From positions 25,708 through 89,707 of the forward strand of contig NZ_LMUT01000015.1 of the NCBI RefSeq assembly GCF_009765785.1: 64,000 nt of DNA, read 5' to 3'. Every line of letters starts with the position of its first letter. Position 1 is the stretch's first letter. Origin of the DNA: Granulicella sp. L46 (GTDB lineage Bacteria > Acidobacteriota > Terriglobia > Terriglobales > Acidobacteriaceae). The notes beneath the pieces are model-generated. The model worked only from the letters and a program-made list of their open reading frames with translations. It ran no database searches and was not told the origin of the DNA. This document shows, one piece after another, positions 5,471 through 35,079 of the stretch. A program made the translations under genes and the position numbers.

Positions 5471-8400
5471 TTAGAAGACCAGGCGGCCGCCGAATTGCAG
5501 AACGCGCTGTTGACCCCCGCTGCTGGTGATTTGCCCGAACGTGCCCGGGTTTTGTGCCGTTCCGAGATGTGCCATATTTCCATCCGGCTGGCCATAACGA
5601 GAGGTGTTCAAGAGGTTGAAGGCTTCAATGCGAATCTGAAAGCTCATGCCGTGGGGCAATCCGAGCACCTTGAAAATGGAGAGATCTTCATTTGTGTAGC
5701 CGGGGCCATAGAGCAAGTTGCGGGCCAGGTTGCCGGTGATGAGGGTCCCGCCGGGAGCGGTGGATGCTGCCTGACCAGGAGGGATGGTAAATGCATTGCG
5801 GTTGAACCACATCTGGATCGTACGGTGACCTACGTAGGGATTGCCCGTGAGGTTCGGCCGCAACCCCGGATAGGTGGGATTGTTCAAATCCGAGACGATG
5901 TTGAAGGGACGACCACCACGCAACGTTGTAATGCTGTTGAGCTGCCAACCGCCGAGGAAGATGTCGGTGACGCGCCCGGAGTCATGGAGGAAGCGCTTGC
6001 CTTTGCCGAACGGCAGCTCGATTACCTGGCTCGCTACAAAATTGTTGCGCAGGTCGATATCAGAGTTCCCATATTCCGCGCCAATGTTGAATGGGTCCTG
6101 CGGGTAGTCGCCTCCCTTGCCCAGGTTCGGAGGTGCTGGACCGGTGTCCAGGTTATGTGACCACGTGTAGGAGATCAGGGCGCTGTAGCCGTGACTGAAT
6201 TGGCGGTTGATCTTGGCTTGAAGCGAATTATAGTTGCTGAGGCCGACTGGCTCTAGCGCCTGCACCTGTCCAAGCGCGGCAGACAGATGGTCGTTGATGT
6301 TATAGTTCCCGACCTTCTGCGAGAGGTTACGGGTATTTGCGCCGACGTATCCCAACTCGAAGGAAGTCGAGCTTCCTAACTGCTGCTGAATCGTGACGTT
6401 GTAGTTCTTTGAATTAGCGGTTGGGAAGTGGATGGGCTGCGAGTTCACCACCTGCGTACTTGCTCCGGGCACCGTCGTCAGATCGACGTTCGCGACGGTG
6501 GGTGGAACAGGATTGGTGGTGGGGCGTGCGACACCCTCATCAAGGAAATAGCTCAAGTAATAAGGGTTATTTGAAAACTGCTGCTCGGTGTAAAAGGGAT
6601 AATTTTCGGTCAGCAGGATATCGCGCGAATCATTTTCAGGTGAATAGAAGATGCCGAACCCGCCGCGAAGAACAGTTTTGGGTGCGAGCTGATACGCGAA
6701 TCCGACGCGAGGCATGAAGTTTGTCTTGTTGGACTCGACGAGCGAACGAGAGTTTCCCCCACGGCCCGCGATGTTGATATTGAGGGTCGTGAGATTGAAG
6801 TTCGCCTGATCATCGTTGACTTCGACATAGGGCTGCACATACTCGTATCGCAATCCATAGGTGATATTAAGCTTCGGCGTAACTTGCCAGTAGTCCTGGA
6901 AGAAAAACGTCTGCTCATTTGCCGTTGTCTCGGGCGCCTTGAACTGGAGCCCCTGATACACCACCTCGGGCAGCCCCAGCAATATGTCCGCGATTTCCGA
7001 GCCGCCGTTGTAGTAATACGCATTTGAGTCGTAAAAACTGTAATCCGTTGCGCTCGAGAAATTCGATCCGGGGCCAGCGAAATATTCGTACGGTACGGGA
7101 TACAGGGAGTAGTCCGAGTTCGAGTCAATATGCCGGTACTCGTAGCCGAATTTGAAGTCGTGTCTGCCCCGCGTGTAAGTCAGTGAATCCATCAAGCCAT
7201 ACACTTTTTCGCGCGACGTGAGCGGCTTATAGGTTGAGCCGCCGGTTACTGCGCCAGAGCCCACCTGAATCTGCGGAAACCCATCCGTCGTTGGGAACCC
7301 AGGGATGTTGGCATTCTGAATGCCAAACTTTGTGGCCAGATTTGTGCCGTCGACAAGACTCTTTTGCGTTGTAGGCGAGAGGAAATAGGTAGCGCGCGCT
7401 TCATTCAAAAGGGTCTGCGTAAACATATGGTCATAGGTCAAGGCGAGCGCTGTGTTTTCGTAGGCAGTCAGACCACCGGTGTCCGCTCCTCCTCCGCCCT
7501 TGACAGGAATGGCGCCGGCATAGGGATCAGTTGAGTTGTAGGTTCCCTGCTCCGCATCGTAGGTCAAGTACAGCCGATTACTTTGCGAGAAGGTGTAATC
7601 CGTCCGCAGATTCCCAACATTGCTGGTCTGGCTGTAATTCTCCGTGATCGCAAAATTCTGGTAGGGGTTGTTGCTCTGCGGCGCTGGGAAAAGACTTTGG
7701 ACGATATTTCTTCCACCTGTGCTAACGTCCGCGGCGGGAATTATGTTTCCGGGAAACTGTTCACTGTAATAGTTGTTCTCAAAGAAGTAAGGATCGAAGA
7801 TCGGAACCTGATTGCCGGTGTAGGGATCGGTGAGCTTCGAAAGATCCGCGTCTCCCGCGGAATCGAAGGTTACCTGGTTCTGTCCAACCAGGGTCTGACC
7901 AAGGTACGACGCTGAGGAAGTGTTCCGATAACCTTCATAGGCGAGAAACAGGAAGGCCTTATCTTTTTTGATCGGGCCGCCGATGGTTCCGCCGTAGTTT
8001 TTCTGAACGGTGGTTGGCGAGGAACCCGGGACCGCAAACTCGTTGTTCGCCGCAGTTGCCGTGGGCCGGTAAAAGAAGAATCCAGAACCATGAAGGTTGT
8101 TGGTGCCCGCCTTTGTCTGGATCAGAATGGAGCCGCCCGATGCACGTCCGAACTCTGGCGCGTACGTCGAGGTGACGACTTTGAACTCCTGGATCGCATC
8201 AGGGCTAGGACGCACGTTAGTGTCGTTGTTAAGGCCTGTCACTTCGACGCCATTGATCTGATAGGAATTGGAAAATTCGCGTTGACCATCCACAGAGATG
8301 CTGAGATTGTTTCCTCCGCCACCTGGCGCTACGCCGGGGACGAGGAGCAGCAGTGTAGTGAAGTCACGACCCAGGGTCGGAAGATCCGCAATCTCCTTCG

Positions 8401-8842
8401 CGCCAATCACCTGGCCTGTCTCCCCACCCTGCAGCTGCAGGATCGGAGTATTGCTCGTCACCGTAACGGTGGCCGAAGCAGACTCAAGTTTTAAGCCGAT
8501 GCTGAAGCGCGCCCTTTGATCGATGTCGAGTTTGAAGGGTGGAGTGGTTTGGGTAGCGAAGCCCGATTTCTCGATGATGACTTTGTACGTACCGGGCGGA
8601 AGGGCGCTGGCAGTGACCTCGCCCGAATTGTCGGTTGCTTTGGTAGTGATGATTCCAGTGTCGATGCTCTGGATGGACACGCCGGCGTCGGCCACCGCGA
8701 TGCCGGAGGGATCCATAACGCGGATCGAGATCGAGCCACTTGTTGCCTGGCCCCAGGCCACTCCAGGCGTCGAAACAGCTGCCAGAAAGGCGAGGATCAG
8801 CAATCCCACGCGTTTGGAAGAACCAGCAAACATTGCGATCAT
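5471..8842 (-). CDS. TonB-dependent receptor, Oar-like, first gene of glycan operon
   Basis: A 1123-residue outer-membrane receptor. After a signal peptide comes a carboxypeptidase-regulatory-like beta-sandwich (about 35-130, containing SGSISIRVMDPSG and PPGTYKVIIEKSGF), then a plug domain (about 140-250, with QINGVEVTG and FGRASGGSILIQTK) and a long beta-barrel ending in the aromatic GGRLVF typical of outer-membrane insertion. Such Oar-like receptors are abundant in Acidobacteria and often sit beside glycoside hydrolase genes, so import of an oligosaccharide is a reasonable inference. The ligand is unknown. An alternative ATG lies three codons downstream. The upstream gap holds two inverted repeats that may be operators for the LacI protein encoded at 14270. 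Confidence 0.9.
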   Translation of the reverse strand: MIAMFAGSSKRVGLLILAFLAAVSTPGVAWGQATSGSISIRVMDPSGIAVADAGVSIQSIDTGIITTKATDNSGEVTASALPPGTYKVIIEKSGFATQTTPPFKLDIDQRARFSIGLKLESASATVTVTSNTPILQLQGGETGQVIGAKEIADLPTLGRDFTTLLLLVPGVAPGGGGNNLSISVDGQREFSNSYQINGVEVTGLNNDTNVRPSPDAIQEFKVVTSTYAPEFGRASGGSILIQTKAGTNNLHGSGFFFYRPTATAANNEFAVPGSSPTTVQKNYGGTIGGPIKKDKAFLFLAYEGYRNTSSASYLGQTLVGQNQVTFDSAGDADLSKLTDPYTGNQVPIFDPYFFENNYYSEQFPGNIIPAADVSTGGRNIVQSLFPAPQSNNPYQNFAITENYSQTSNVGNLRTDYTFSQSNRLYLTYDAEQGTYNSTDPYAGAIPVKGGGGADTGGLTAYENTALALTYDHMFTQTLLNEARATYFLSPTTQKSLVDGTNLATKFGIQNANIPGFPTTDGFPQIQVGSGAVTGGSTYKPLTSREKVYGLMDSLTYTRGRHDFKFGYEYRHIDSNSDYSLYPVPYEYFAGPGSNFSSATDYSFYDSNAYYYNGGSEIADILLGLPEVVYQGLQFKAPETTANEQTFFFQDYWQVTPKLNITYGLRYEYVQPYVEVNDDQANFNLTTLNINIAGRGGNSRSLVESNKTNFMPRVGFAYQLAPKTVLRGGFGIFYSPENDSRDILLTENYPFYTEQQFSNNPYYLSYFLDEGVARPTTNPVPPTVANVDLTTVPGASTQVVNSQPIHFPTANSKNYNVTIQQQLGSSTSFELGYVGANTRNLSQKVGNYNINDHLSAALGQVQALEPVGLSNYNSLQAKINRQFSHGYSALISYTWSHNLDTGPAPPNLGKGGDYPQDPFNIGAEYGNSDIDLRNNFVASQVIELPFGKGKRFLHDSGRVTDIFLGGWQLNSITTLRGGRPFNIVSDLNNPTYPGLRPNLTGNPYVGHRTIQMWFNRNAFTIPPGQAASTAPGGTLITGNLARNLLYGPGYTNEDLSIFKVLGLPHGMSFQIRIEAFNLLNTSRYGQPDGNMAHLGTAQNPGTFGQITSSGGQQRVLQFGGRLVF

Positions 8843-14269: not shown

Positions 14270-15370
14270 GTGGTTACGAAAGCAACAGCATCGCGGGACA
14301 AGGGCAAAGCGTCGAAGCCTTTGAAACGTAAACGCGGAATCCATGCGGTGGCTGAGCTCGCGGGCGTGTCCATCTCCACTGTCTCGCGGGTGATGAACGG
14401 TGCGACCAACGTTGACATCAAGATCAGCCGGAGGGTCTGGAAGGCGGTTTCCGAAACATCCTACGTTCCGAACCGACACGCTCAGGCGCTCATCTCGGGC
14501 CGCACTCGATTGATCGGGCTGCTGGTACCGGACATCATGAATCCGTTCTTCCCTGAGCTCATTCACGGCTTTGAACAAGCGGCAGCGGAGGAGGGATTCG
14601 GCATCCTGATCGGTTCCACGCATGACCACTCGAACGAGACGGCGGAGTGGGTGCGCCGGATGTTGCAGCACGGAATCGAAGGCCTCGCGCTGCTGACCTT
14701 CAAGGAGGAGAGCGCCGAAGTTTACGCGCTGCTCCGAAAGATTCCGTGGGTCCAGCTTGAAATCAGCGCGAAGGCAAAGGGCCCCGGGACAGTTTCAATC
14801 GACTATGAGACCGGGATTCGGCAGGCTGTCCAACACCTCGCCGCGTTGGGCCATCGCGATATCGTATTTGCTGCGGGCGCTGCTAACGATTTCACCGCCG
14901 AGCTTCGACGGAAAGCCTTCCGAAAGTCCATACGCGAGATCGGCATCGAACCGAACATATACAACGAAGATCACACGCTGGAAGGTGGCATCTCGGCGGC
15001 GCAGAAGATCCTCGAGCGCGAGGTTTTACCGACGGCCATTATTTGTTCGAACGACCTGATGGCGATTGGTGCGCTGAAAATCCTGCATTCGGCGGCCCTG
15101 CAGGTTCCCGGCGATGTATCGGTAATTGGACTTGATGATATTCATCTGGCCCAGTTCACTTCCCCGCCGCTGAGCACCATCCGACTGCCCCGAACGCAAC
15201 TCGCCGAAACGTGCTTCGAGGCCCTCTTCCAGATGCTTCGGCCGAACGCTCGACCACCGCGTGGAGAGCGCGTCTCTACAGATTTAATCGTCCGCGAATC
15301 GACAGGCTTCCCTCCCCATGCTTTGCAATCGAAGGCAAGAGCGAGCAAAACGAAGCCCCGCTCCGCATAA
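14270..15370 (+). CDS. LacI-family transcriptional regulator
   Basis: A 366-residue DNA-binding repressor or activator. The N-terminal helix-turn-helix (AVAELAGVSISTVSRVMNG, about 26-45) and hinge are followed by a periplasmic-binding-protein-like sugar domain with the family signatures GLLVPDIMNPFF and VIGLDDIHLAQFTSPPLSTI. The extra basic N-terminus (KRKRG) is slightly long for the family. Translation starts at GTG with a GGAGG site. It is divergent from the SGNH esterase and lies between the hydrolases and the sugar symporter, so it probably senses a breakdown product and controls the surrounding cluster. The inverted repeats at 8873 and 9042 are candidate targets. Confidence 0.93.
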   Translation: MVTKATASRDKGKASKPLKRKRGIHAVAELAGVSISTVSRVMNGATNVDIKISRRVWKAVSETSYVPNRHAQALISGRTRLIGLLVPDIMNPFFPELIHGFEQAAAEEGFGILIGSTHDHSNETAEWVRRMLQHGIEGLALLTFKEESAEVYALLRKIPWVQLEISAKAKGPGTVSIDYETGIRQAVQHLAALGHRDIVFAAGAANDFTAELRRKAFRKSIREIGIEPNIYNEDHTLEGGISAAQKILEREVLPTAIICSNDLMAIGALKILHSAALQVPGDVSVIGLDDIHLAQFTSPPLSTIRLPRTQLAETCFEALFQMLRPNARPPRGERVSTDLIVRESTGFPPHALQSKARASKTKPRSA

Positions 15371-22521: not shown

Positions 22522-23970
22522 TTAATCGTGCATCGAACCGGTGGAGTTATACAGATTGGGATAGGGTGCCGTCGCGGTGATGGCGTCGTCTGCCGTGGCC
22601 TGCGTGAGAGTCACATGATTGCGCGCGAGGCTGAAGTGAGGCGCAGGCCCGGGAGTTAGCGGGAGTTGGAGATCATTGGAGCCGGCGGGGAGAGTGACAG
22701 TCATCGTGGTCGCGCCGAGAATTACGGTAAGGTCAGCAGGAGCGGTGAGATTCGCCGTGATGTAGAGAGTGTCGGCGACGGGCCCGTAGAGCTTGATGGC
22801 CGGCTGGTGCTCGGTCGAAAGGACCGTGCGATAGGCCCAATAGATCGCGTCGTTGTGGATCTCAGGTTGATGTCCACTCTTGTACCACGCGATGAAGTAA
22901 GCGAGGAGATCGGTGACCCCGCGGTGTGAGTGGAAGAAGTGCAGGGTGTCGGCGGGAGCGATGCTAGGCCCGAGGTCATTGGCACCAGGATATTTCGCGG
23001 GATCATCAATGGGCGAGACGTAAGTGCCCTCGATAAAATCATTCCATGTGAGGATTTCTACCCACTCAGGATGGGTCGCCTGGATAGCCTGCATCCAAAG
23101 GCGCCGCATCCCCTCGTAACCGCTGTACTCGTAGTAGCGGCCAGCGTTGGCGCCCCAAAACTGGAAGCAGATGGGTGCGACATACAGCTTCTGCGCGCCG
23201 TGGAGAGTGGCAGCGTAAGCGGCGGAAGACGGAAGCTGATCAGGCGCGTGGCCGAGGCCCGGAGAGCCAGCGATCCCCCAGTAGAAGGCTCCGTCGATAA
23301 CGTGCTGGTAGAGCGCGAGGCCGGAGGCAACGCCATCGGCGGTGGGAGTTTCGCCCCCCCAGAAGAAAGACGGCACTAAGAAAATGCGAATAGGTGCGCT
23401 GGACGGAACGCTGCGGACCCACGACAGGGCGTCGGGTGCGGCGAGAAGCGAAGGCGCTGTGCCATGCTCGAGATTCGAGCGAAGCTGTTGCCAAAACTCC
23501 GGCCCGTGGCTGGAGCCGGAGAAGGTGGTGAGGACAAACCGGCCGTCGTGCTGGAAGTAAACGCCGGCGTAGCGAGGATTATTGGCGAAGCGCCGGACCA
23601 TGTCCATCACATCGGTTGCATCGTTGGAACAGCACATGTCGGCAGAGAACATGAGTTTGAAGCCGGAGTGCAGCCGGTAAGCAGCTTCAAACATTTCTGA
23701 GGCGCGGCGAATGTAGCGCGGCTCTTTGGACCAGCCACCGGCGTTAAGCGCAAAGCCGTCGATGCCGATGGCTTGGGCTTGCTGAATCTCGTGTTGGTAG
23801 GCGGCGATGTTGGGCTCGCCGGTAGCGTCGTCGGCCACCGTGCCCTGGTTGGCAAGCATGTAGTGCGCGAAGACGAGGCGCTGGGCGGGTGCCGAGATAG
23901 CGAACAGGAAACAGAAAAGAACCAGAAGATGCGGGAGTGCTCGACGGGTGCGCTGCTTGCTGCGTTGCAT
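22522..23970 (-). CDS. Secreted GH71 endo-alpha-1,3-glucanase (mutanase-like)
   Basis: A 482-residue exported enzyme. The mature part begins with the GH71 hallmark LVFAHYMLANQG and continues with IGIDGFALNAGGW, FKLMFSADMCC, a VYFQHDGRFVLTTFSG strand and VEILTWNDFIEGTYVSP. Known GH71 enzymes, mostly fungal with some bacterial members, cut alpha-1,3-glucan of fungal cell walls or dextran-like polymers. A C-terminal beta domain (about 390-482) may aid binding. The start at ATG 23970 keeps the signal peptide and lies 10 bases after the stop of the upstream regulator; a longer reading frame to 24132 would overlap that gene. Activity on alpha-1,3-glucan is inferred from the family. Confidence 0.82.
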   Translation of the reverse strand: MQRSKQRTRRALPHLLVLFCFLFAISAPAQRLVFAHYMLANQGTVADDATGEPNIAAYQHEIQQAQAIGIDGFALNAGGWSKEPRYIRRASEMFEAAYRLHSGFKLMFSADMCCSNDATDVMDMVRRFANNPRYAGVYFQHDGRFVLTTFSGSSHGPEFWQQLRSNLEHGTAPSLLAAPDALSWVRSVPSSAPIRIFLVPSFFWGGETPTADGVASGLALYQHVIDGAFYWGIAGSPGLGHAPDQLPSSAAYAATLHGAQKLYVAPICFQFWGANAGRYYEYSGYEGMRRLWMQAIQATHPEWVEILTWNDFIEGTYVSPIDDPAKYPGANDLGPSIAPADTLHFFHSHRGVTDLLAYFIAWYKSGHQPEIHNDAIYWAYRTVLSTEHQPAIKLYGPVADTLYITANLTAPADLTVILGATTMTVTLPAGSNDLQLPLTPGPAPHFSLARNHVTLTQATADDAITATAPYPNLYNSTGSMHD

Positions 23971-23980
23971 GCAAATCAAC

Positions 23981-25237
23981 TTACCAGAAGTAGGTCGCGA
24001 CCACCTTGGGCGGCGAGGAGATCCCGTCGATGATTTCGGTGCTAAGAACCATCTCCATATTCTTCTGGTCCCAGTCCTTGGGAAGATAGCCCTTGATAGC
24101 CTCCATCTCGCCGGGCTGTGTGAGGAATTCACCGGCGGCTACCGTGCCACCGCGAGCAATGCCGGCGGCGACGATGGCAAGCTTACCAGTGTTAGCGTCG
24201 CGGAACCGGGCGACGATCGCGTAGTCGCGGTAGTTGTGGGTAGCCTGCTGGACTTGGCGGTCGATGCTCCAGCGAAGCTGATTGTGCGACTGGGTGTCCT
24301 CAATCCAGAAATGAGACATATCGGGATCGTTGCCGAACCGGTAGCGAAGATCGCGCGTCATACGCAACGTCCAGGTGTTATCGAAGGCGCCAAGAAAAAT
24401 GGTAGGGCCCTGGCGCAGATCGGTAAGCGTCGCAGTGTCTTCGCCGAGAAGAGTGTAGTGACGGTGCCGCATCTCGAGCAGGCCTGAGAAGCTCATCAGC
24501 GGCTGCAGGTCGTCGAGGACGACGCCGCGCATATGCTCGTCCAGATGACGAACCTGGCTGGGAGTGGACGCATCCAGGAGCGTTTGACCGGTGAACATGC
24601 TCTGCGGAAAGCAAAGCGAGATTGGCTCGCTGGATCCGAAGATAGGAGCCCAGAATTTATCGAGCGTGGAGGGACGCGAGCTAAGCCAGACCGAGCTCCC
24701 CGCTGCAGCCGCAATCAACAAGACCGATGCCAGAACCCCCCACCAGGCGCGGGATCGACCATGCGCATGGACAGCAAGAGTCTCTGGGATGGACTCGACC
24801 GGATGAGTCGTGGTGGAGAACTCGTTCAGCGAGACGGGGTTCGTGGGACTGAGCGGTGAGGAGGCTGGCTGGGGCCACTCAAAGTGTGGAATATAAGAGC
24901 CCGGGGGTAGCGAGATGCGCAGCTCGTCAGGGCTCTCGGAATCTTGGTAGTACTGGGCGATGCGCTTGCGAATCTCGGCGGCGGTGACACGAACAATCGG
25001 GTCCGTGGTAGTGTCGTAGCCGGCATCGCGACCGAAAACCTCGATGCCGAGGGTGCGTTCCTTAAGCTGGTCGCCACGCCCCTCAAGCTCTTCGTGGATG
25101 ATGTAGCGGAGGAAGCTCGGAAATCGTTTGCTGTGGGAAAAGTGGGGGTTATCAAGCAGGCGATCCAGCTGTCGCAGGATGTCTGCCTTCTCCGCATCGC
25201 CGTAAACGGCTGCCGAAACGCCCCCATAGTCAGTCAT
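23981..25237 (-). CDS. Transmembrane one-component regulator of the alpha-glucan locus
   Basis: A 418-residue protein. Residues about 20-120 match an N-terminal domain common in Acidobacteria and rhizobia and often labelled adenylate-cyclase-like, with RFPSFLRYIIHEELEGRG, ERTLGIEVFGR and DPIVRVTAAEIRKRIAQYY, then PPGSYIPHF. It has a winged-helix character and probably binds DNA. A single membrane span follows (about 165-186). The C-terminal 230 residues would lie outside the membrane and form an unclassified sensor domain. No cyclase catalytic motif is visible. It is the first gene of a two-gene unit with GH71 and is divergent from the TonB receptor at 25476, which suggests it controls both. 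That role is inferred from position and topology. Confidence 0.68.
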   Translation of the reverse strand: MTDYGGVSAAVYGDAEKADILRQLDRLLDNPHFSHSKRFPSFLRYIIHEELEGRGDQLKERTLGIEVFGRDAGYDTTTDPIVRVTAAEIRKRIAQYYQDSESPDELRISLPPGSYIPHFEWPQPASSPLSPTNPVSLNEFSTTTHPVESIPETLAVHAHGRSRAWWGVLASVLLIAAAAGSSVWLSSRPSTLDKFWAPIFGSSEPISLCFPQSMFTGQTLLDASTPSQVRHLDEHMRGVVLDDLQPLMSFSGLLEMRHRHYTLLGEDTATLTDLRQGPTIFLGAFDNTWTLRMTRDLRYRFGNDPDMSHFWIEDTQSHNQLRWSIDRQVQQATHNYRDYAIVARFRDANTGKLAIVAAGIARGGTVAAGEFLTQPGEMEAIKGYLPKDWDQKNMEMVLSTEIIDGISSPPKVVATYFW

Positions 25238-25475
25238 AATTGTCCGTTAGACGCGGATTATACCGTCTGGACCAGGGCTTTGTCGCGGACGAAAATTGGC
25301 CGATTTTCCCAACAAATTGCCGATTCTTATCGGGATAAGAGCCTGTACTTTACCGCAAGGCCCTAGACAGTCTCGGAGGCGGACCCTATAACCGGGCGAC
25401 ACTCAAAGTCGACTTTAGTTCTTCATATGGGTAAACCCGTCCTCGCGAGAGGCCGGTTCAAATTTTGGAGGCAAC
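25238..25475. promoter_or_regulatory. Divergent control region of the alpha-glucan locus
   Basis: The 238-base gap between the regulator and the TonB receptor holds several symmetric sequences. AGACG at 25249 and CGTCT at 25264 are complementary. A directly repeated AAATTG(G)CCGATT begins at 25293 and 25314, 21 bases apart. A hairpin CCGAT-TCTT-ATCGG covers 25320-25333. These are good places for regulator binding. The TonB receptor has a clear GGAGG before ATG 25476. Confidence 0.5.
25293..25325. repeat. Direct repeat AAATTG(G)CCGATT, two copies 21 bases apart
   Basis: The copies start at 25293 and 25314, on the same helix face at two turns' spacing, in the gap between divergent genes. This is typical of paired sites for a dimeric activator. 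The second copy overlaps the small hairpin at 25320-25333. Confidence 0.4.
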
Positions 25476-28400
25476 ATGAAGCGCAATCTTATAGAGGTGG
25501 AAACCGCTCGCCCGTGGTTCGTATGTAGAGGCCGGGGCTTCCTCAATCTTTCCGTCTGTTTAATACTGCTGGCGATGCTGAGCAGCCCGGCGCATGCACA
25601 GGTGGGCGCGGCATCTCTGAGCGGCACCGTCGAAGATACGACCGGCGCAAGCGTTCCGGGCGCAACGGTCACGATCCAGAACACAGCCAGTGGTTTGCAG
25701 CGGCATCTGCAGAGCAATAGCGCCGGTGAGTTCTCGTTCTCGGCAGTTCCCAGCGGCGACTACAAAGTGACCATCGAACACGCCGGATTCAAGCAGTTGG
25801 TGCGCCCCGCAATCCACCTGAACGCGGGCGACAGTATCGCGCTGACGGACCTGCAACTTACCGTCGGGGATGTGAGCCAGAGCGTCACGGTCAGCACGAC
25901 AACCGCGGGTTTGCCGCTGGACAGCGGCCAGTTGAGCTCGACGATCACGGCCGGCGACCTGGATAGGTTGTCCATCGTTGGGCGCGATGCGACCGAGTTG
26001 GAAAGCATTCTGCCAGGGTTTGCAATCCGCAATCTGGGGTCGACCAACGCGGCACCGGACTTCAGCCAGGTACAAATAGGCCAGCCAACGCCCTATGCAT
26101 CGAACGGCTCACCGGTAGCAGGCATCACCCTCAAGCTGGATGGCGCAAGTCTGACGGACGCTGGAAACTTTGGCGCGGCGCTGATGAATATAGACGATGC
26201 CTTTGTGAGCGAGGTGCAGGTGCAGACCTCGAACTTCGGCGCAGATCAGTCAAATGGTCCCGTGATCATTCAGGGTGTGACGAAGTCGGGCACGGACAAG
26301 TATCACGGAAGCGTCTATACGTATGCACGCACCTATCAGCTGGACGCGAACGACTGGCTGGCGAATTACAACGGTCTGGCGCGGCCGGAAGATCGCTACA
26401 TCTATCCGGGCGGCACGATCAGCGGACCGATTCCCCACACCAAGAAGGTGACGTTCTTTGCAGGCGCCGAGTATGACGCGCAGCGCAATATCTACGCGTA
26501 CGGCAGCTCCGGCAGCGCGATTATTCATGCGCTGGTTCCGACACAGGCGCTGCGCAATGGCGACTTCAGCCAGGCCGCACTGGACAATTTCCTTGGGCCG
26601 GAAGCAACGAACGGAAATTATGGCACGTTCAATGTGGCGCCTACCTATGGCGACGATCGCACGCCTTTGACCAACGGCAATATCGCGCCCTGGCTTGACC
26701 CCGGCGCCATGGCGCTCGTGAATGGCACACTCCCGTTGCCGACCCGGACGCAGACGGGTACGGATGGATTCAACTGGGACCAACAGAACCTGGTAAATAA
26801 CAATGTCAGTCAATTTGTCGGGCGCGTGGATTACAACATCACCCCACGCAATATTTTCTTTGCGCGCTACAGCTTTGAAAAGCAAAAGCAGGGGCAGCCG
26901 GAGGTTCCGTATTACTCGCCCGCGTCGTCGAGCGTGATGGGCGGCGTCAACACACCCGGCTACGGCGTAAATAACGACGTGTGGGTACACAGCGGTTCGA
27001 TCAACTATGTAACCCAATTCACGCCGACGCTGACCAATGAGATGTATGCAACCATCACGTCGTTCCTGCAGTCCTTTGACGCACGCGACATCTCTGCACT
27101 GCAGAAGGGCGCGATCGATTATCCATACAACGGTGCGTTCGCCAATAACGACACGCAGTATCCGCAGCTCGGCACGTATACGACCTACGGCGGCTTGCCG
27201 TTGGGCTTGTGGCCGGACTACTCAGAAAATCCGCTCGAGCTGAAGAAGCTGCAACCGAATATAGGCGATAACCTGACCAAGGTCTGGGGCAAGCATGTGG
27301 TGAAGATCGGCATCTTCAGCCAACGCACCAGCAACAACCAGACCGCGACCAATCCATCCACCAACGGCATCATCCAGAATTATTACTACGGACCTGCCGG
27401 AACCTACTTTGCGGATTACAACGGGACGTATCCGGATGGATCGCCGGCGTACGGCAATCCGCACTTCAACAGCGGCAATGCTTTGGCGAACTTCTTTGAA
27501 GGCCAGATCCAGGACTGGCATCAGCAGAACTTCAATCCATATACTGACCTGTATTTCTGGAACACTGACTTCTACGCCCAGGACACCTGGCGCGTAGCAT
27601 CGAACTTTGTGCTGACGTATGGCGCGCGCATCAGCAAACTTGGTGCGTGGCAGGATGCACATGGGATTGGTGCATCGGTCTGGATCCCGTCGCTGTATAC
27701 CTCGGAATACAACGCAACAACGAACCCGCTGCCAGGCCTCACGTGGCACGGAAATAATCCTTCCATCCCGAACTCCGGCGTAGGCACCCCCCCGGTTTAT
27801 TTTGAGCCGCGGTTCGGGTTCTCATTCGATGTCTTCAAAACCGGCAAGACGGTGATACGTGGCGGTGCCGGCGTCTACCGCTTCCATGATTCGGTAACGG
27901 ACGTGGCCAACGAGTTCGCTCTGGCAGAGAATGTTCGATACACCGATCTGCAAGGCTTTGGCGGCAACACGCTGAAAGGCGTCAGCTCGCTCCAACTGGA
28001 TCCTTACACGTACGGCAACACCGGCCCGGGCAGCACGGAAACTTATATCTCGCCGTCGACAATCTATGGCCTCGACCCGAGCGACAACAACGAACCGGTA
28101 ACGAATAACTACAGTCTGAGTGTGGCGCAACAGCTGCCCGGCCGCTGGATTCTGCAGATCTCCTACGCCGGCAATAACACCAACTCGATGATGAATAACG
28201 GCACGACGCAGGCGGTTGTACTCAACAATGTGAACGCTATTCCAGTGGGCACCCTGTTTACCCCAACCGCAGCAGCGGCCATCAATGCGGGCGCTGGCTA
28301 TAACGCCTGCGATCCGACAGGCTGCACACCGCAACAGGCAGCAAGTCTGGATAACATCTATAACTACCCGGGCGATAAGGCGGTGCAGAAGGCGCGACCG

Positions 28401-29264
28401 TTCCCAAACTACAGCCAAATCCTGGTCCCGCGTCATAACACCTTCGCGAACTATAACGGCCTGCAGATCGTGGCAGTCAAGCAGATCGGGAGGCTGAACT
28501 TCAATGTGAACTATTCATACTCCAAAGCGCTCGGCATTCTCGGGTCGGCGGCCGACTTCAACTGGACTGCCGGTATGGATCCATTCAATTTACTGAATAA
28601 CTACGGGCCGCTGAACTTCGACCGTTCGCAAATTCTCAACCTGAGCTATTCGTATCAAACTGGCAGGTTCACGGATAAGCGTGTGCTGGGCGCGCTCATT
28701 AACGGGTGGCTGATCTCAGGCATCACGAACCTCCAGAGTGGACCGAACATGCAGACGGGCGTCAGCGCCTCGCCGGGTTACTACCTCCAGGGAAACATCG
28801 GCCAGGGAGCGACTGCCTATCCAGTCGAGTCGCAGTCGATCCTTGGAACGCCCGACGTCAACCTGCAGCCGAGGCTAACCTGCAATCCGGCAAAGGGACT
28901 GGTGGCGCATCAGTATCTCAACCCGAACTGCTTTGCGCTGCCGTCGATTGGAACCAACGGCCAGTACATTGAGCCCTACGCTCACGGACCGGGATTCTTC
29001 AATACGGACCTGACTCTGGAGAAGACCTTCCATATCGGTGGAACCAGGACTCTGCGTCTGCGCTACGCGGCGTTCAACTTCATCAACCACCCGCTGAACA
29101 GCTTTGGCACCGGATACGCATCGCAGACCACACTGCAGTTGAGCGATACGTCTCCGAATGGAACGCCTGAAACGGCAACGTATGACCCGAGCGAAGGCTT
29201 CGGGTCGGCTCCGCTCAAGCTTGGACGGCGCATCTCTGAAGTGTCATTAGTGTTCAGCTTCTAA
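25476..29264 (+). CDS. TonB-dependent receptor, Oar-like, alpha-glucan locus
   Basis: A 1262-residue outer-membrane receptor with an extended N-terminus before the signal peptide core, which ends AHAQ. A carboxypeptidase-regulatory-like domain follows (about 42-130, AASLSGTVEDTTGASVPGA, SGDYKVTIEHAGFK), then a plug (about 140-290) and a beta-barrel ending EVSLVFSF. It is longer than the receptor at 5471 and clearly a different paralogue. ATG 25476 has a strong GGAGG. The GH31 gene follows in the same direction after a GC-rich hairpin. With GH71 on the other side, the likely cargo is an alpha-linked gluco-oligosaccharide. Confidence 0.9.
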   Translation: MKRNLIEVETARPWFVCRGRGFLNLSVCLILLAMLSSPAHAQVGAASLSGTVEDTTGASVPGATVTIQNTASGLQRHLQSNSAGEFSFSAVPSGDYKVTIEHAGFKQLVRPAIHLNAGDSIALTDLQLTVGDVSQSVTVSTTTAGLPLDSGQLSSTITAGDLDRLSIVGRDATELESILPGFAIRNLGSTNAAPDFSQVQIGQPTPYASNGSPVAGITLKLDGASLTDAGNFGAALMNIDDAFVSEVQVQTSNFGADQSNGPVIIQGVTKSGTDKYHGSVYTYARTYQLDANDWLANYNGLARPEDRYIYPGGTISGPIPHTKKVTFFAGAEYDAQRNIYAYGSSGSAIIHALVPTQALRNGDFSQAALDNFLGPEATNGNYGTFNVAPTYGDDRTPLTNGNIAPWLDPGAMALVNGTLPLPTRTQTGTDGFNWDQQNLVNNNVSQFVGRVDYNITPRNIFFARYSFEKQKQGQPEVPYYSPASSSVMGGVNTPGYGVNNDVWVHSGSINYVTQFTPTLTNEMYATITSFLQSFDARDISALQKGAIDYPYNGAFANNDTQYPQLGTYTTYGGLPLGLWPDYSENPLELKKLQPNIGDNLTKVWGKHVVKIGIFSQRTSNNQTATNPSTNGIIQNYYYGPAGTYFADYNGTYPDGSPAYGNPHFNSGNALANFFEGQIQDWHQQNFNPYTDLYFWNTDFYAQDTWRVASNFVLTYGARISKLGAWQDAHGIGASVWIPSLYTSEYNATTNPLPGLTWHGNNPSIPNSGVGTPPVYFEPRFGFSFDVFKTGKTVIRGGAGVYRFHDSVTDVANEFALAENVRYTDLQGFGGNTLKGVSSLQLDPYTYGNTGPGSTETYISPSTIYGLDPSDNNEPVTNNYSLSVAQQLPGRWILQISYAGNNTNSMMNNGTTQAVVLNNVNAIPVGTLFTPTAAAAINAGAGYNACDPTGCTPQQAASLDNIYNYPGDKAVQKARPFPNYSQILVPRHNTFANYNGLQIVAVKQIGRLNFNVNYSYSKALGILGSAADFNWTAGMDPFNLLNNYGPLNFDRSQILNLSYSYQTGRFTDKRVLGALINGWLISGITNLQSGPNMQTGVSASPGYYLQGNIGQGATAYPVESQSILGTPDVNLQPRLTCNPAKGLVAHQYLNPNCFALPSIGTNGQYIEPYAHGPGFFNTDLTLEKTFHIGGTRTLRLRYAAFNFINHPLNSFGTGYASQTTLQLSDTSPNGTPETATYDPSEGFGSAPLKLGRRISEVSLVFSF

Positions 29265-29274
29265 CCTGGGCTCT

Positions 29275-29304
29275 GGCCGCGGCGGTGGAGACACCGTCGC
29301 GGCC
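29275..29304 (+). terminator. Strong hairpin after TonB receptor, terminator or attenuator
   Basis: A 13-base stem (GGCCGCGGCGGTG with CACCGTCGCGGCC, one G-T pair) closed by a GAGA tetraloop, 10 bases after the receptor stop and about 70 bases before the GH31 start. The following bases are only moderately T-rich, so partial termination or mRNA stabilisation is possible. Confidence 0.6.
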
Positions 29305-29377
29305 CTTGCTTCCTTGATTGGCAACGCCGCAGCTCGGCGGCGCCTCGGTAGACCTGTTGGATTTTGTGGAGAAGCAA

Positions 29378-31936
29378 ATGCCCGGACGAAGAGTCACCGG
29401 TTCGTTCAGTTCGCTCTTTCTCTGTGCTACGGTCGCAGGTTTTTGCGTGTCGGCGCAAACCCGTCCGGCAACCCCGTCGGGAATTGCTTCGTTTTCGTCG
29501 ATCACCAGCGCATCACCACTTCCGAACGGAGTCGAGTTGCATCATGGCGATCTGGTGATGCAAATTACAGCGCTGCGAGAAGATGTGTTGCGTATTCGCG
29601 CCTCAAATACGGGCGCACTGCCTGAAGATGCGAGTTGGGCAGTTCTGGCTGAGGCCCGAGCCGCGTCGGTAAACGTGACCCAGGATAGCGACGAGAACAC
29701 CGTGACATTTCACACTGCCGCGTTGCATGTCTCCATCAATCGCGCTACGGGACTTATGACGTTGACGGATTCGACGGGTACAGTTTTGCGGCAGGATGCA
29801 GAGCCGATGCAGTTCGATGGCAACGGCTTTCGTCTCGCGGATACGATGCCCGCAGACGAGCATTACTTCGGTCTCGGTGACAAGACGGGAGCCTTCGATC
29901 ATCGCGAGGCGGCCTTTCGTTTATGGAATACCGATGCATATGGTTGGCAGGAGTCGACCGACCCGCTCTACAAAAGCATTCCGTTTTATCTGACGTATCG
30001 CGCGGGGGTATCGCTCGGCGTGCTGATCGATAACACCTGGCCGTCATCATTCGACTTTGGCAAGACGGTCGGTAATACGGTGCAGTATCGCGCAGAAGGC
30101 GGCCCGGCGAACATCTACATTCTGTACGGGCCTTCCGCAAAGGAAGTGCTAAAGAGCTATGCATGGCTGACTGGGCCGACTCCGCTTCCGCCCCTATGGA
30201 CATTGGGTTTCCAGCAGTCGCGCTACAGCTACATGACGCAGGATCGCGTGCTGCAGGTCGCCGAGCAGCTGCGTAAAGACAAGATTCCTTCCGACGCCGT
30301 ATACCTTGACATTGATTACCAGGAGAAGAACCGTCCCTTCACGATTAACAAGGACGCGTTTCCGGACATGGCAGCAATGGTGAAGACACTCCATGCGGAA
30401 AAGTTCCACGTGGTCGCAATCACGGATCTACATATCCCGTTCCTCCCCGGACAGGATTATCCGCCCTTCAATAGTGGCGTCGCCGGCGATGAGTTTGTAA
30501 AAAACTCGGACGGAACGACGTTCGTGGGCAAGGTTTGGCCCGGGCCCAGCGTGTTTCCGGATTTCACGAGGGCGCAGACGCGTGCATGGTGGGGAACGCT
30601 CTACAAGAACCTTGCACAGATTGGGATCGACGGATTCTGGAATGACATGAATGAGCCTTCAGTGTTCAACGATCTCAAAACTATGCCATGCTCGGCGGTG
30701 CATCGCATCGACGAACCAGGCTTTGCGATACGCACGGCGACGCATTGCGAGATCCATAACGTATACGGAATGGAAAACTCGCGTGCAACATTCGAAGGCC
30801 AACTTGCCCTGAAGCCAGACGTCCGGCCGTTCGTCCTGACACGAGCTTCGTATGCAGGAGGACAGCGGTATGCGGCGACATGGACCGGCGACAACTCCGC
30901 CACCTGGAATCATTTGCGTCTGACGACATCGATGCTAAAAAATCTGGGGCTCAGCGGATTTGCCCTTGCCGGAGCCGATGTAGGAGGCTACGCGGGAACG
31001 CCCACGCCCGAGCTGCTCACCAAGTGGCTTGAAATCGCAGCGTTTCAGCCGATCGATCGCGACCATGCGGAGAAGGGCACGGGAGATCACGAAGTGTGGG
31101 CCAACGGACCAGCGCAGGAAGACATCCGGCGCCGCTTCATCGAAACTCGCTACCGGCTCCTTCCCTACCTTTACACCGTGACGGAAGAAGATACGCATAC
31201 GGGACTGCCGCTGTTGAGGCCGCTGTTTCTCGAGTTTCCAGATGCGGCTGCAGATCGGCATCCGCTGGACGTTGATCTCAATACGTCAGGGGAGTTCATG
31301 GTGGGACCGGATCTGTTGGTTGCTGCGCCAGCTTTTGAAGACCAGTCCGGTGATTACGAGGCAACACTTCCCTCCCGTGGCTGGTATGACTTTTGGACCG
31401 GCCGACAGGTGGCGGAGGGCCTGGAAAAGGTGCAGGCCGGTGGGCTCCAGCCCGAGTCCGCGCTGGGGCCGGTCCTGCTGGCAGTGCGCGTTCATCGCGA
31501 CTTGTCCACGCTCCCGGTCTTCGTCAGGCCGGGAACAATCCTTCCGATCGAGCCGCTTGTGCAGAGCACCGAAGAGCAGCCCTCCGGTCCACTGACGTTG
31601 CGTGTATTTCCGGGCCCGAACTGCGGCGGACATCTCTATCAGGATGATGGAACGAGCTTCGCCTACAAACGGGGTGAATTTCTGCAGATGGCCTTTTCCT
31701 GTCAAACCTCGGAAAATCAAACCGGGATAACCATACACATCGGAAAACATGCTGGAAGCTATCCGGCGTGGTGGAACGAGATCGCGGTGCAGGTGAACGG
31801 GTTGTCAACCAGACCCTCATCCGTGACCGTGAATGGAAAACCTGCAAACTTCACCTATGCGGACACCTCGGCCACCATCGTAGCGAAGGACAGCGGGGAT
31901 GGCATCGACGTTGTCGTGGAGTCCACTGCCCATTAG
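29378..31936 (+). CDS. Exported GH31 alpha-glucosidase
   Basis: An 852-residue GH31 enzyme that should release terminal alpha-glucose (or alpha-xylose) from oligosaccharides. A signal peptide is followed by an N-terminal beta-sandwich (FGLGDKTGAFDHR), a (beta/alpha)8 barrel and two C-terminal beta domains. The nucleophile Asp is in DGFWNDMNEPSVF and the acid/base Asp in ATWTGDNSATW, both intact. ATG 29378 is preferred over an upstream in-frame TTG at 29318, because GGAG lies six bases before it and the signal peptide starts there. It lies directly downstream of the TonB receptor. With secreted GH71 as the endo-enzyme, it probably completes alpha-1,3-glucan breakdown in the periplasm. Confidence 0.92.
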   Translation: MPGRRVTGSFSSLFLCATVAGFCVSAQTRPATPSGIASFSSITSASPLPNGVELHHGDLVMQITALREDVLRIRASNTGALPEDASWAVLAEARAASVNVTQDSDENTVTFHTAALHVSINRATGLMTLTDSTGTVLRQDAEPMQFDGNGFRLADTMPADEHYFGLGDKTGAFDHREAAFRLWNTDAYGWQESTDPLYKSIPFYLTYRAGVSLGVLIDNTWPSSFDFGKTVGNTVQYRAEGGPANIYILYGPSAKEVLKSYAWLTGPTPLPPLWTLGFQQSRYSYMTQDRVLQVAEQLRKDKIPSDAVYLDIDYQEKNRPFTINKDAFPDMAAMVKTLHAEKFHVVAITDLHIPFLPGQDYPPFNSGVAGDEFVKNSDGTTFVGKVWPGPSVFPDFTRAQTRAWWGTLYKNLAQIGIDGFWNDMNEPSVFNDLKTMPCSAVHRIDEPGFAIRTATHCEIHNVYGMENSRATFEGQLALKPDVRPFVLTRASYAGGQRYAATWTGDNSATWNHLRLTTSMLKNLGLSGFALAGADVGGYAGTPTPELLTKWLEIAAFQPIDRDHAEKGTGDHEVWANGPAQEDIRRRFIETRYRLLPYLYTVTEEDTHTGLPLLRPLFLEFPDAAADRHPLDVDLNTSGEFMVGPDLLVAAPAFEDQSGDYEATLPSRGWYDFWTGRQVAEGLEKVQAGGLQPESALGPVLLAVRVHRDLSTLPVFVRPGTILPIEPLVQSTEEQPSGPLTLRVFPGPNCGGHLYQDDGTSFAYKRGEFLQMAFSCQTSENQTGITIHIGKHAGSYPAWWNEIAVQVNGLSTRPSSVTVNGKPANFTYADTSATIVAKDSGDGIDVVVESTAH

Positions 31937-32695: not shown

Positions 32696-32816
32696 CACTG
32701 TACCTGCTTCTTCCCTTCAGTTGCGCCAACTCAAGGAACTCCTCCCGCAATGCCGGATTCTCGAGCGCGCATTCGTCAGCGCGCGCCCCTACCCGTGTAA
32801 CACCCAATCCCACTAT

Positions 32817-32834
32817 CGCCGTCCGCGCAGGACC
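32817..32834. repeat. 18-bp element CGCCGTCCGCGCAGGACC, copy 1
   Basis: A perfect copy of an interspersed element with a GTCC/GGAC inverted repeat around GCGCA. It lies 34 bases upstream of the pfkA start and could affect that gene's leader. Confidence 0.7.
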
Positions 32835-32868
32835 GTTATCATCTTCAAGGTCGACTTGGAGGTATGAA

Positions 32869-33906
32869 ATGCGTATTGGAATGCTCACCGGTGGTGGAGA
32901 TTGCCCCGGACTCAACGCCGTCATCCGCGCCGTAGTGCGCAAAGGCATCCTCCACTACAACGACGAATTCATCGGCTTCCTCGAAGGCTGGCGCGGCGTC
33001 ATCGACGACCGAACCATGCCCCTCGACCTCGTCACCACCACCGGCATCCTGCAGCGCGGTGGCACCATCCTCCGCTCCTCCCGCACCAACGTCAAAAAAA
33101 TCGAAGGCGGCTTCGAGCGCTGTCTCGAAGTCATCGCCCTCCACAAGCTCGACGCCCTCATCGCCATGGGCGGCGACGACACCCAGTCCATCTCGGTCGA
33201 ACTCGCCAAGCGAAACATCAACGTAGTCGGCGTCCCCAAGACCATCGACAACGACCTCTCCGGCACCGACGCCTGCTTCGGATTCGACACCGCCGTCACC
33301 ATTGCCACCGAAGCCATCGACCGCCTCCACTCCACCACCGAAGCCCACAGCCGCGTCCAGGTTGTCGAAGTCATGGGCCGCGACGCCGGCTGGATCGCCG
33401 TCACCTCCGGCATCGCCGGCGGCGCCGACGTCATCCTCGCCCCCGAAAATCCCATCGACATCGACGACGTAGTCCGCCTCCTCCGCGCCCGCTGGGAAAG
33501 CGGCAAGCGCTTCGCCATCGTCGTCGTCGCCGAAGGCGCGAAGCTCCCCGAACACACCGGCCAAACCTCCGTCGGCACCAAGCTCGACTCCTTCGGCCAC
33601 GTCCGCCTCAGCGGCATCGGCCAGGTCCTCGCCGAAGAAATAGAAAAGCGCACCGGCTACGAAACCCGCAGCGTCAACCTCGGCCACACCCAGCGCGGCG
33701 GAACCCCCACGGCCTACGACCGCATGCTAGCCACCCGCTACGGCATCGCCGCCATCGACCTCGTCCACCAAGGCAAATTCGGCCAACTCGTCGTCCTAAA
33801 AGGCACGCAAATTTCCACCATCCCCATCGCCGACGCCATCGCCAAAACCCGCACCGTCACCCCCGACCTCTTCGAAGTAATCAAAAGCCTCCAGCCCCAA
33901 CCCTGA
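32869..33906 (+). CDS. pfkA: 6-phosphofructokinase, residues of the pyrophosphate-dependent type
   Basis: A 345-residue phosphofructokinase, phosphorylating fructose 6-phosphate in glycolysis. Family motifs are GMLTGGGDCPGLNAVIRA, PKTIDNDLSGTD, VEVMGRDAGWIA and LGHTQRGGTP. The numbering coincides with E. coli PfkA. At the specificity positions this protein has Asp104 (GGDDT, bases 33178-33180) and Lys124 (VPKTIDND, 33238-33240). ATP enzymes such as E. coli's have Gly at both sites, whereas Asp104 with Lys124 is the established signature of pyrophosphate-dependent PFK. It is therefore more likely to use PPi and work reversibly, despite the ATP-PFK label such genes often carry. GGAGG lies before ATG 32869. 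Confidence 0.93.
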   Translation: MRIGMLTGGGDCPGLNAVIRAVVRKGILHYNDEFIGFLEGWRGVIDDRTMPLDLVTTTGILQRGGTILRSSRTNVKKIEGGFERCLEVIALHKLDALIAMGGDDTQSISVELAKRNINVVGVPKTIDNDLSGTDACFGFDTAVTIATEAIDRLHSTTEAHSRVQVVEVMGRDAGWIAVTSGIAGGADVILAPENPIDIDDVVRLLRARWESGKRFAIVVVAEGAKLPEHTGQTSVGTKLDSFGHVRLSGIGQVLAEEIEKRTGYETRSVNLGHTQRGGTPTAYDRMLATRYGIAAIDLVHQGKFGQLVVLKGTQISTIPIADAIAKTRTVTPDLFEVIKSLQPQP

Positions 33907-34088: not shown

Positions 34089-34538
34089 ATGAATAACGCC
34101 ATCGACTCGATCGCTACCGGCTTTACGATCTGCTGGATCATCTGGGTCGTCTTCACCAACGTCCGTCGCTTCCTGATCGCCAAAACCAAGGCCAGCCTCC
34201 AGGAAAAAGTTCTCCAACGCATCGACTCCTCCGACGCCCTCACCTCCCTAGCCGCCAACGAATCCGGCCGCCGCTTCCTCGAGTCCATCACCGTCGAAGA
34301 AAACAAAGTCAGCTCCCCCTTCGGCCGCATCCTCTTCGGCGTCCAGGCCGGCCTCGTCCTGCTCTGCTTCGGCGTCGCCATTCTCACCCTCCACCGCCAC
34401 ATCTACGATCCCGCCGGAGGCTTTATCATCGTAGGCACTGGAGGCATCGGTCTTGGACTCGGCTTTCTCACTGCTTCGGCTGCCAGCCTCTTCGTATCCC
34501 GCAAGCTCGGGCTCATCAGCCGTGAATCGCGCGGTTGA
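34089..34538 (+). CDS. Small inner-membrane protein of unknown function
   Basis: A 149-residue protein with three hydrophobic segments: residues about 8-24 (TGFTICWIIWVVFT), about 80-98 and about 108-132. The middle (about 30-75) is a charged cytoplasmic or periplasmic loop. AAGGAG lies before the ATG. No family is recognised. It precedes and slightly overlaps the possible long form of the ECF sigma factor gene, so it may belong to the same unit and serve as its membrane-linked partner. Confidence 0.62.
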   Translation: MNNAIDSIATGFTICWIIWVVFTNVRRFLIAKTKASLQEKVLQRIDSSDALTSLAANESGRRFLESITVEENKVSSPFGRILFGVQAGLVLLCFGVAILTLHRHIYDPAGGFIIVGTGGIGLGLGFLTASAASLFVSRKLGLISRESRG

Positions 34539-34554
34539 TCCCACCACCGCAGCC

Positions 34555-35079
34555 ATGCCCAGCTCGCTAGAGCACGCTGCCGCCCCGGCCGCCGTTCTCA
34601 GCGAGCTGGCCTTTCAGCGTCTCTACGACACCAACGCCACCTCCATCCACAGCTACCTCCTCGCCGTCTCCGCCCGCCGCGATGTAGCCGACGACCTCCT
34701 GCAAGAAACCTTCTGCCGCCTCCTCCTCCACCCAAAATCCACCGCCCATCTCGACACCCTCGAGCTCCGCCGCTACCTCTTCCGCATCGCCACCAACCTC
34801 CTCCGCGACCGCCACCGCTCTGGCGATACCACCCCCTTCGCCGACCCGCCCGAGCCCACCACGCATCCCTCCCTCGACAACACAATCGACATCCGCACCA
34901 TGCTCCAACACCTCAAGCCCCGCGACCGCGAGCTCCTCTGGCTCGCTTACGTCGAAGGCATGGACCACACAGAAATCTCCCAAGCCACCGGCCTCAACCG
35001 CCTCAGCGTGCGAACCCTCCTCTTCCGCGCCCGCAACAAAGCAAAACAATTCCTAACTCCCGCGAGAGCTTCCCTATGA
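34555..35079 (+). CDS. ECF-type RNA polymerase sigma factor
   Basis: A 174-residue sigma factor with region 2 (FQRLYDTNATSIHSYLLAVSA, then DDLLQETFCRLLL) and region 4 (LKPRDRELLWLAYVEGMDHT and the recognition helix NRLSVRTLLFRARNKAKQFL). It directs RNA polymerase to a specific promoter set. The start is uncertain: ATG 34555 gives a normal length, while an in-frame GTG at 34522 overlaps the previous stop and the frame extends to 34453. None has a strong binding site. Its stop overlaps the next gene as ATGA, implying tight coupling with a possible anti-sigma protein. Confidence 0.85.
   Translation: MPSSLEHAAAPAAVLSELAFQRLYDTNATSIHSYLLAVSARRDVADDLLQETFCRLLLHPKSTAHLDTLELRRYLFRIATNLLRDRHRSGDTTPFADPPEPTTHPSLDNTIDIRTMLQHLKPRDRELLWLAYVEGMDHTEISQATGLNRLSVRTLLFRARNKAKQFLTPARASL

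Follow-up and report, generated by a model that had tools for sequence, protein, structure and literature searches.

Four-gene locus and its proposed working

In the window, a stretch of 64,000 nucleotides from Granulicella sp. L46, genes encoding a glycoside hydrolase of family GH71, a predicted transmembrane one-component regulator (REG), an Oar-like TonB-type outer-membrane receptor (TBDR) and a GH31 alpha-glucosidase-like enzyme are situated side by side at 22522-31936. Our favoured, though by no means firm, reading is that they form a four-gene alpha-glucan utilisation unit under the membrane-anchored REG, which would sense an alpha-gluco-oligosaccharide and activate both operons, while GH71 would cut the glucan, TBDR import the fragments and GH31 trim them, REG itself being a branch of a larger TBDR-linked family. 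What the sequence itself displays is the presence of the four genes, the fact that they are conserved as a set, and a conserved bipartite element between the two divergent operons; each molecular action is our inference.

REG would be anchored in the inner membrane and bind the bipartite element by its cytoplasmic winged-helix-like domain. Glucan fragments would enter the periplasm via TBDR, where the periplasmic domain of REG would bind alpha-gluco-oligosaccharide, and the ligand-bound regulator would activate the divergent operons REG(-GH71) and TBDR-GH31(-GH71), acting in its membrane-tethered state from an element that is also upstream of its own promoter. Secreted GH71 would cut the glucan, most likely alpha-1,3-linked, outside the cell and so feed the system, and GH31 would finish the fragments to glucose in the periplasm.

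The locus is as compact as the original prediction had claimed, no other gene being called between the four, and the family assignments of GH71, TBDR and GH31 were borne out by Pfam matches (Table 1), which for the receptor include the Oar-like outer-membrane barrel. REG and GH71 constitute one tight operon, with the predicted GH71 start at 23973 located 8 nt from the REG stop, and TBDR and GH31 form an operon divergent from it; the start codons of GH71 (23973) and GH31 (29375) were picked by eye as likely true starts. The host genome of 5.48 Mb contains a single GH71. The relatives carrying the same genes are acidobacteria, including Granulicella sp., Acidobacteriaceae and Bryocella elongata, of which strain DSM 22489 has the set at L024.

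Conservation of the four-gene set

PF03659 was matched in 14 of 61 genomes (the own genome and 60 relatives), with eight full-length places, and a close GH71 homologue was observed in 8 of 300 family genomes, the own included, i.e., its distribution is patchy. Twelve different loci with a close GH71 were pooled from the search of the relatives, the family draw and L062. All four genes occur together in eight of them (the window, L019, L020, L021, L023, L024, L035, and L062). In case of L022, three genes are present and the contig begins within TBDR, and L025 begins within GH71; in L036 and L037 (genomes G009 and G022) a stretch of about 20 kb contains GH71 but none of its three partners. Co-occurrence of the four genes is more frequent than expected by chance. 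Their being kept together in relatives, on which the original prediction depended, is thus observed. Two gene orders occur: GH71 follows REG in five sets and GH31 in three (likewise in L022). Since a constant parts list recurs in two orders, joint function is suggested.

Neighbourhoods were called with a custom-made gene caller, and flanks are short in L019, L022, and L025. At E 1e-20, genes beyond the four are common to L023 and L025. Two window genes, the one at 3161-5449 and the LacI-type gene at 14270-15370, have homologues in L020 and L024 at a distance of 7-9 kb from the set; at the same cut, the flanks of other loci contained no homologue of any further window gene except within the TBDR family. 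Genomes G009 and G148 contain a REG-TBDR-GH31 set (L097, L146) with no GH71 in the stretch examined. Ten further GH71-like places are partial matches of 21-44 bits, and the neighbourhoods of eight of these (L039-L045) lack all four genes at the cut used.

Divergent promoter and bipartite element

Judged by alignment of the REG-TBDR intergenic regions, a conserved bipartite element is present in the divergent promoter and is common to both operons. The conserved block consists of the palindrome TCTTATCGGGATAAGA and the half-element CCGCAAGG, followed by TAGACA-17-TATAAC, which a stricter consensus scan did not pick up as a promoter. On the REG-GH71 side, ATTATA, the reverse of TATAAT, is aligned in 7 of the 10 sequences of alignment A2. 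The element precedes the predicted TBDR transcription start by approximately 40-75 bases and is free of overlap with any predicted -10 or -35 box. When at most one mismatch is allowed, the genome has two copies of the palindrome, this one and another before a 78%-identical REG paralogue. Exact copies are present in the window, L019, L020, and L097, whereas the remaining sets have degenerate ones.

A looser bipartite pattern was matched at 11 distinct places in 1.38 Mb, all upstream of REG and/or TBDR genes of this clade, compared to 0.4 hits per mononucleotide-shuffled set; the pattern had been fitted to these same 11 sites. It is matched by seven of the eight four-gene sets, the exception being L021. 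Among 20 new, held-out REG windows, one hit was obtained (L148, about 100 bp upstream of REG) and none in the other 19. The REG of L148 has the highest full-length identity to the window REG (43%) among the REGs called, which four of the 20 windows lack. We regard this hit as a success, but a single one, and the 9.8 kb examined around the L148 REG, which extend to the contig end, are devoid of a TBDR. The gene with its upstream element (L148:5752-7175) may be an orphan regulator.

The idea of one palindrome for all REG loci was rejected, as the pattern of this branch is absent from the windows of other branches. In 6 of 34 divergent pairs the best palindrome was equalled by none of 20 shuffles, namely L019 and L097 of this branch and L069, L076, L084, and L091 of others. 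The strong palindromes in the REG-TBDR intergenic regions of L084 and L091 (AGGTAAAGAGCCTCTTTACCT; TTCTAACCGTTAGAA) are candidate operators of their own.

Table 1. Genes and predicted control features of the locus, in window coordinates
Feature	Position	Strand	Evidence or remark
GH71 glycoside hydrolase	22522..23973 (ORF to 24132)	-	PF03659 E 4.8e-53
REG, predicted transmembrane one-component regulator	23981..25237	-	single hydrophobic segment 167-185
Sigma-70-like promoter of REG-GH71, GCGACA-18-TATAAT	25257..25286	-	consensus scan
7-2-7 palindrome TCTTATCGGGATAAGA, proposed REG operator	25325..25340	.	centre about -67 from predicted TBDR transcription start
Second half-element CCGCAAGG	25353..25360	+	about two helical turns from palindrome
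Promoter-like TAGACA-17-TATAAC of TBDR-GH31 operon	25364..25392	+	-10 box conserved across alignment A2
Oar-like TonB-type outer-membrane receptor (TBDR)	25476..29264	+	PF25183 OMP_b-brl_4 9e-121; CarboxypepD_reg PF13620 2e-20
GH31 alpha-glucosidase-like enzyme	29375..31936 (ORF from 29318)	+	PF01055 1.6e-110, N and C domains too

The predicted regulator

The membrane-spanning regulator of the original prediction is recovered as a protein with one predicted span, located between a putative winged-helix-like N-domain (approximately residues 14-120) and a predicted periplasmic alpha/beta domain (188-418). Exactly one hydrophobic segment was also observed in 69 of 73 REG proteins. Neither Pfam nor NCBIfam gave a match for the window protein; Trans_reg_C was missed by it and matched by one of 20 REG members at a weak E of 0.2. 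Profile comparison of the N-domain with Trans_reg_C by hhalign gave a probability of 35, which none of 100 column shuffles reached. A structure model of the N-domain was of low confidence, and Foldseek and VIA-align yielded nothing usable. The fold of the periplasmic domain resembles glycan-handling proteins and is BcsB-like. We infer a form with a cytoplasm-facing winged-helix-like domain and a periplasmic sensor.

With the ToxR/CadC type, as described in the available part of PMC10269533, REG would have in common a DNA-binding-like N-terminal part and a periplasmic sensor, besides one predicted transmembrane segment; it differs in lacking a recognised Pfam DNA-binding domain, in its frequent pairing with TBDR and in its BcsB-like periplasmic domain. 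In its working REG would be comparable to this type, within the limit that the unrecognised DNA-binding domain sets to a class assignment. Due to the same lack, REG would be missed by the survey of transmembrane transcription regulators in that source, which, as far as its accessible text goes, used Pfam DNA-binding models.

The enzymes and the likely substrate

GH71 covers positions 1-373 of the 375 of PF03659 with 180.7 bits (cut-off 34). Its DxxE dyad, D365 and E368 of protein P0002 within TWNDFIE, is kept in all 12 GH71 loci, and the closest solved structure by sequence is Agn1 of S. pombe (PDB 8yfh, E 1.1e-24, aligned over residues 109-524). Both enzymes are expected to be extracytoplasmic because each starts with a signal-peptide-like segment, of Sec type in GH71 (by eye and hydropathy in both cases). 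According to the accessible portions of the sources, the dyad is crucial for activity of two Aspergillus GH71 members (PMC12394665), every characterised GH71 is an alpha-1,3-glucanase (PMC13421300), and GH99 typically has ExxE compared to DxxE in GH71 (both); the activities of bacterial GH71 are still to be investigated (PMC12394665), with none characterised to date (PMC13421300, July 2026). The profile, the dyad and the alignment to Agn1 are shared with the fungal alpha-1,3-glucanases (Agn1, AnGH71C), whereas the window enzyme belongs to a bacterial branch without characterised members and sits in a transport locus. Going by these family features, alpha-1,3-glucan is the likeliest substrate of the locus; that it would be of fungal origin, and that the locus might serve mycophagy as the original prediction suggested, are possibilities beyond this. 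At 945 amino acids the GH71 of L036 (L036:9174-12011), located outside a set, is longer than the other GH71 enzymes (about 450-530), and its C-terminal repeats resemble carbohydrate-binding modules by eye.

In GH31 (protein P0003), D443 in WNDMNE and D525 in TGDN are present, which we take to be catalytic; by pattern search among 11 GH31 homologues, WNDMNE was found in 10 and TGDN in eight. The best matches in the PDB are general alpha-glucosidases, from which a linkage preference is not readable. In the text available of PMC9061262, LlGH31_u1 is a GH31 alpha-1,3-glucosidase whose fungal relatives are proposed to cooperate with GH71 on alpha-1,3-glucan; with the window enzyme it shares GH31 family membership. 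Identity of TBDR to the receptors of nine other loci is 63-83%.

Comparison with polysaccharide utilisation loci

Polysaccharide utilisation loci (PULs) of Bacteroidota generally include a linked regulator. Common to them and the window locus are an endo-enzyme, a TonB-type importer, a finishing glycosidase and a linked regulator in one unit; in contrast to them, the window locus has an Oar-like receptor and lacks SusD, a hybrid two-component system (HTCS) and SusR. The predicted absence of SusD was upheld genome-wide, as PF07980 was unmatched (the Bacteroides control was positive) and no adjacent SusC/SusD pair was found. As regards the likewise predicted absence of an HTCS, the window REG has no Pfam domain at all, hence no fusion of histidine kinase and response regulator was recognised. 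The locus is PUL-like in its working, yet, since SusD is lacking, it is not a Bacteroidota PUL. Compared to the GH87/GH97 locus predicted in Prevotella melaninogenica (PMC13421300, from the portion available), GH71 takes the place of GH87.

The wider REG family

REG is not confined to the window locus: it belongs, as a single branch, to a larger acidobacterial family whose genes often adjoin those of TonB-type receptors. The own genome contains eight REG genes, with a TBDR adjacent to six and within 6 kb of seven. For 40 REG windows of seven other genomes, hand-picked among the matches listed, a TBDR is adjacent in 28 (20 divergent, 7 tandem, 1 convergent) and within 6 kb in 38; the control counts were 5 of 152 genes, mutually non-independent, and 4 of 20 windows. 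Over 34 pairs, REG and TBDR divergence are correlated (r 0.62; maximum in 2000 permutations 0.30). REG-like proteins occur in at least 26 of 199 genomes of the phylum, a lower bound with at most eight candidates scored per genome.

At two loci, here termed type II (L047 and L146), a REG of this branch is accompanied by an unrelated TBDR, a tetratricopeptide repeat (TPR) gene, recognised by Pfam in the case of L047 and by eye in that of L146, and GH31. The type II receptors are 62-64% identical to each other and 22% to the window TBDR by pair alignment. Because GH31 is retained next to an unrelated receptor, REG keeps to the glycosidase rather than to the receptor. L047 (8664-16150) contains the REG copy (78%) with the same palindrome upstream, an ASPIC/UnbV FG-GAP gene, a TBDR2 with its own bipartite element, the TPR gene and GH31, and probably forms one regulon with the window locus.

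Chosen examples from the own genome, not a sample, associate REG-TBDR loci with the carbohydrate-active enzymes (CAZymes) GH2/GH30 (L048), GH28/GH127/alpha-galactosidase (L049), and GH2 (L050), and with PI-PLC-like or MmgE-like genes (L051, L052). At L050:11735-13261, a REG-type N-domain with transmembrane segment is fused to a malectin domain and adjoins a TBDR (two called fragments), then GH2; this protein is a candidate carbohydrate-binding one-component regulator. The same N-terminal arrangement at L053:7699-9633 is followed by a C-terminal part that looks TPR-like by eye, and no TBDR is present in this stretch of 20 kb. Among examples elsewhere, REG occurs near genes of RND efflux pumps at L074 and L081 and near a two-component system at L067, hence not every REG locus is glycan-related.

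Acidobacteriota are abundant in soils, and their polysaccharide sensing and import are little described. It is tempting to speculate, with about equal weight for and against, that they run many Oar-like TonB receptors by undescribed transmembrane one-component regulators with a divergent winged-helix-like domain, one transmembrane segment, an interchangeable periplasmic sensor (often BcsB-like and glycan-sensing, once malectin) and branch-specific operators. These would be the counterpart of HTCS/SusR in the phylum, taking the role that HTCS or pairs of extracytoplasmic function (ECF) sigma and anti-sigma factors have elsewhere, and the window locus would be the alpha-glucan branch. Searches of an open-access library showed no account of regulators of acidobacterial TonB receptors, and term searches of the available text of PMC3174227, PMC5900883, and PMC6252331 found no prior description. 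Should REG prove to be a glycan-sensing switch, the regulator branch could be used in each genome to link receptors and their enzymes to substrates. The locus offers a ready test case, with a bacterial GH71, its predicted partners, a candidate regulator and a predicted operator of 36 bp.

Alternative explanations

The palindrome with 7-bp arms alone is unremarkable, being matched by 4 of 20 shuffles of this region. Exact copies were found in three of 200 family genomes, i.e., the own (twice), one inside an ORF and one before a TBDR without REG, so that such copies arise elsewhere too. An enrichment of CAZymes around the whole REG family did not emerge either: a random 20 of 120 neighbours gave six, compared to three in 20 of 127 controls, which is no clear difference (the classification was our own, with a weak AXE1-like esterase left uncounted). 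The same machinery may also serve another substrate, such as bacterial exopolysaccharides (mutan-, alternan- or nigeran-like), glycogen-like or mixed alpha-glucans, or a target of another activity in the GH71/GH99 superfamily, e.g., endo-alpha-mannosidase. This is possible, if the less probable case, given the uncharacterised bacterial GH71 (PMC12394665, PMC13421300), the general alpha-glucosidases closest to GH31 and the REG-TBDR-GH31 sets without nearby GH71; furthermore, in the portions at hand, GH71 genes were enriched when the metagenome of a soil had been supplied with Granulicella exopolysaccharide of seven sugars (PMC7265232), and a GH99-like Prevotella enzyme has the GH71-type DYGE motif, so that the dyad alone cannot fix the activity (PMC13421300). 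Against it stand the DxxE rather than the GH99-typical ExxE in 12 of 12 loci and the uniform alpha-1,3-glucanase activity of characterised GH71 (PMC13421300, same portion).

As to the signal, REG could sense the loaded TBDR by FecR-like trans-envelope signalling instead of a periplasmic sugar, in line with the frequent adjacency and correlated divergence of both; this seems unlikely, since within one genome REGs of approximately 78% identity adjoin receptors with an identity of only 22% while GH31 is kept, and the fold of REG resembles glycan-handling proteins. It is similarly doubtful that REG represses the operons until sugar releases it: a repressor could bind the same element, but the position of the latter, clear of the -10 and -35 boxes, is the usual one for an activator. 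An island whose four genes move as a group but do not cooperate is improbable. The patchy GH71 and a sharp GC-skew boundary adjoining the set would suit an island, whereas it is contradicted by the recurrence of the same four genes in either order amid mostly dissimilar flanks and by the one control element that 7 of 8 sets match.

Genomic setting

The original prediction that no ECF/anti-sigma pair is present stood for the receptor, whose neighbours are REG and GH31 and not sigma or anti-sigma genes, but an ECF sigma factor gene is located nearby at 34522-35079, past GH31, a phosphofructokinase (PFK) gene and the skew boundary at about 32.8 kb. It was dropped as regulator of the locus due to this position and because no homologue was found in the flanks of other loci at E 1e-20, a strict cut for a short ECF protein. 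PFK was likewise dropped as a member of the unit, the flanks of other loci being without a homologue (E 1e-20).

The boundary adjoining the four-gene set lies at approximately 32750-32900. To its left, the four genes included, GC skew is mostly near 0; to its right it is -0.2 to -0.46 irrespective of gene direction, and third-position skew reaches -0.8. We read the low-skew side as a segment that was acquired or moved, lying next to the native strand-skewed chromosome. A further OMP_b-brl_4 receptor, without an adjacent REG match, is situated in the same low-skew segment at 5471-8842. The REG-TBDR loci L047-L052 of the own genome are mostly near 0 in skew as well, and L053 is mostly skewed.

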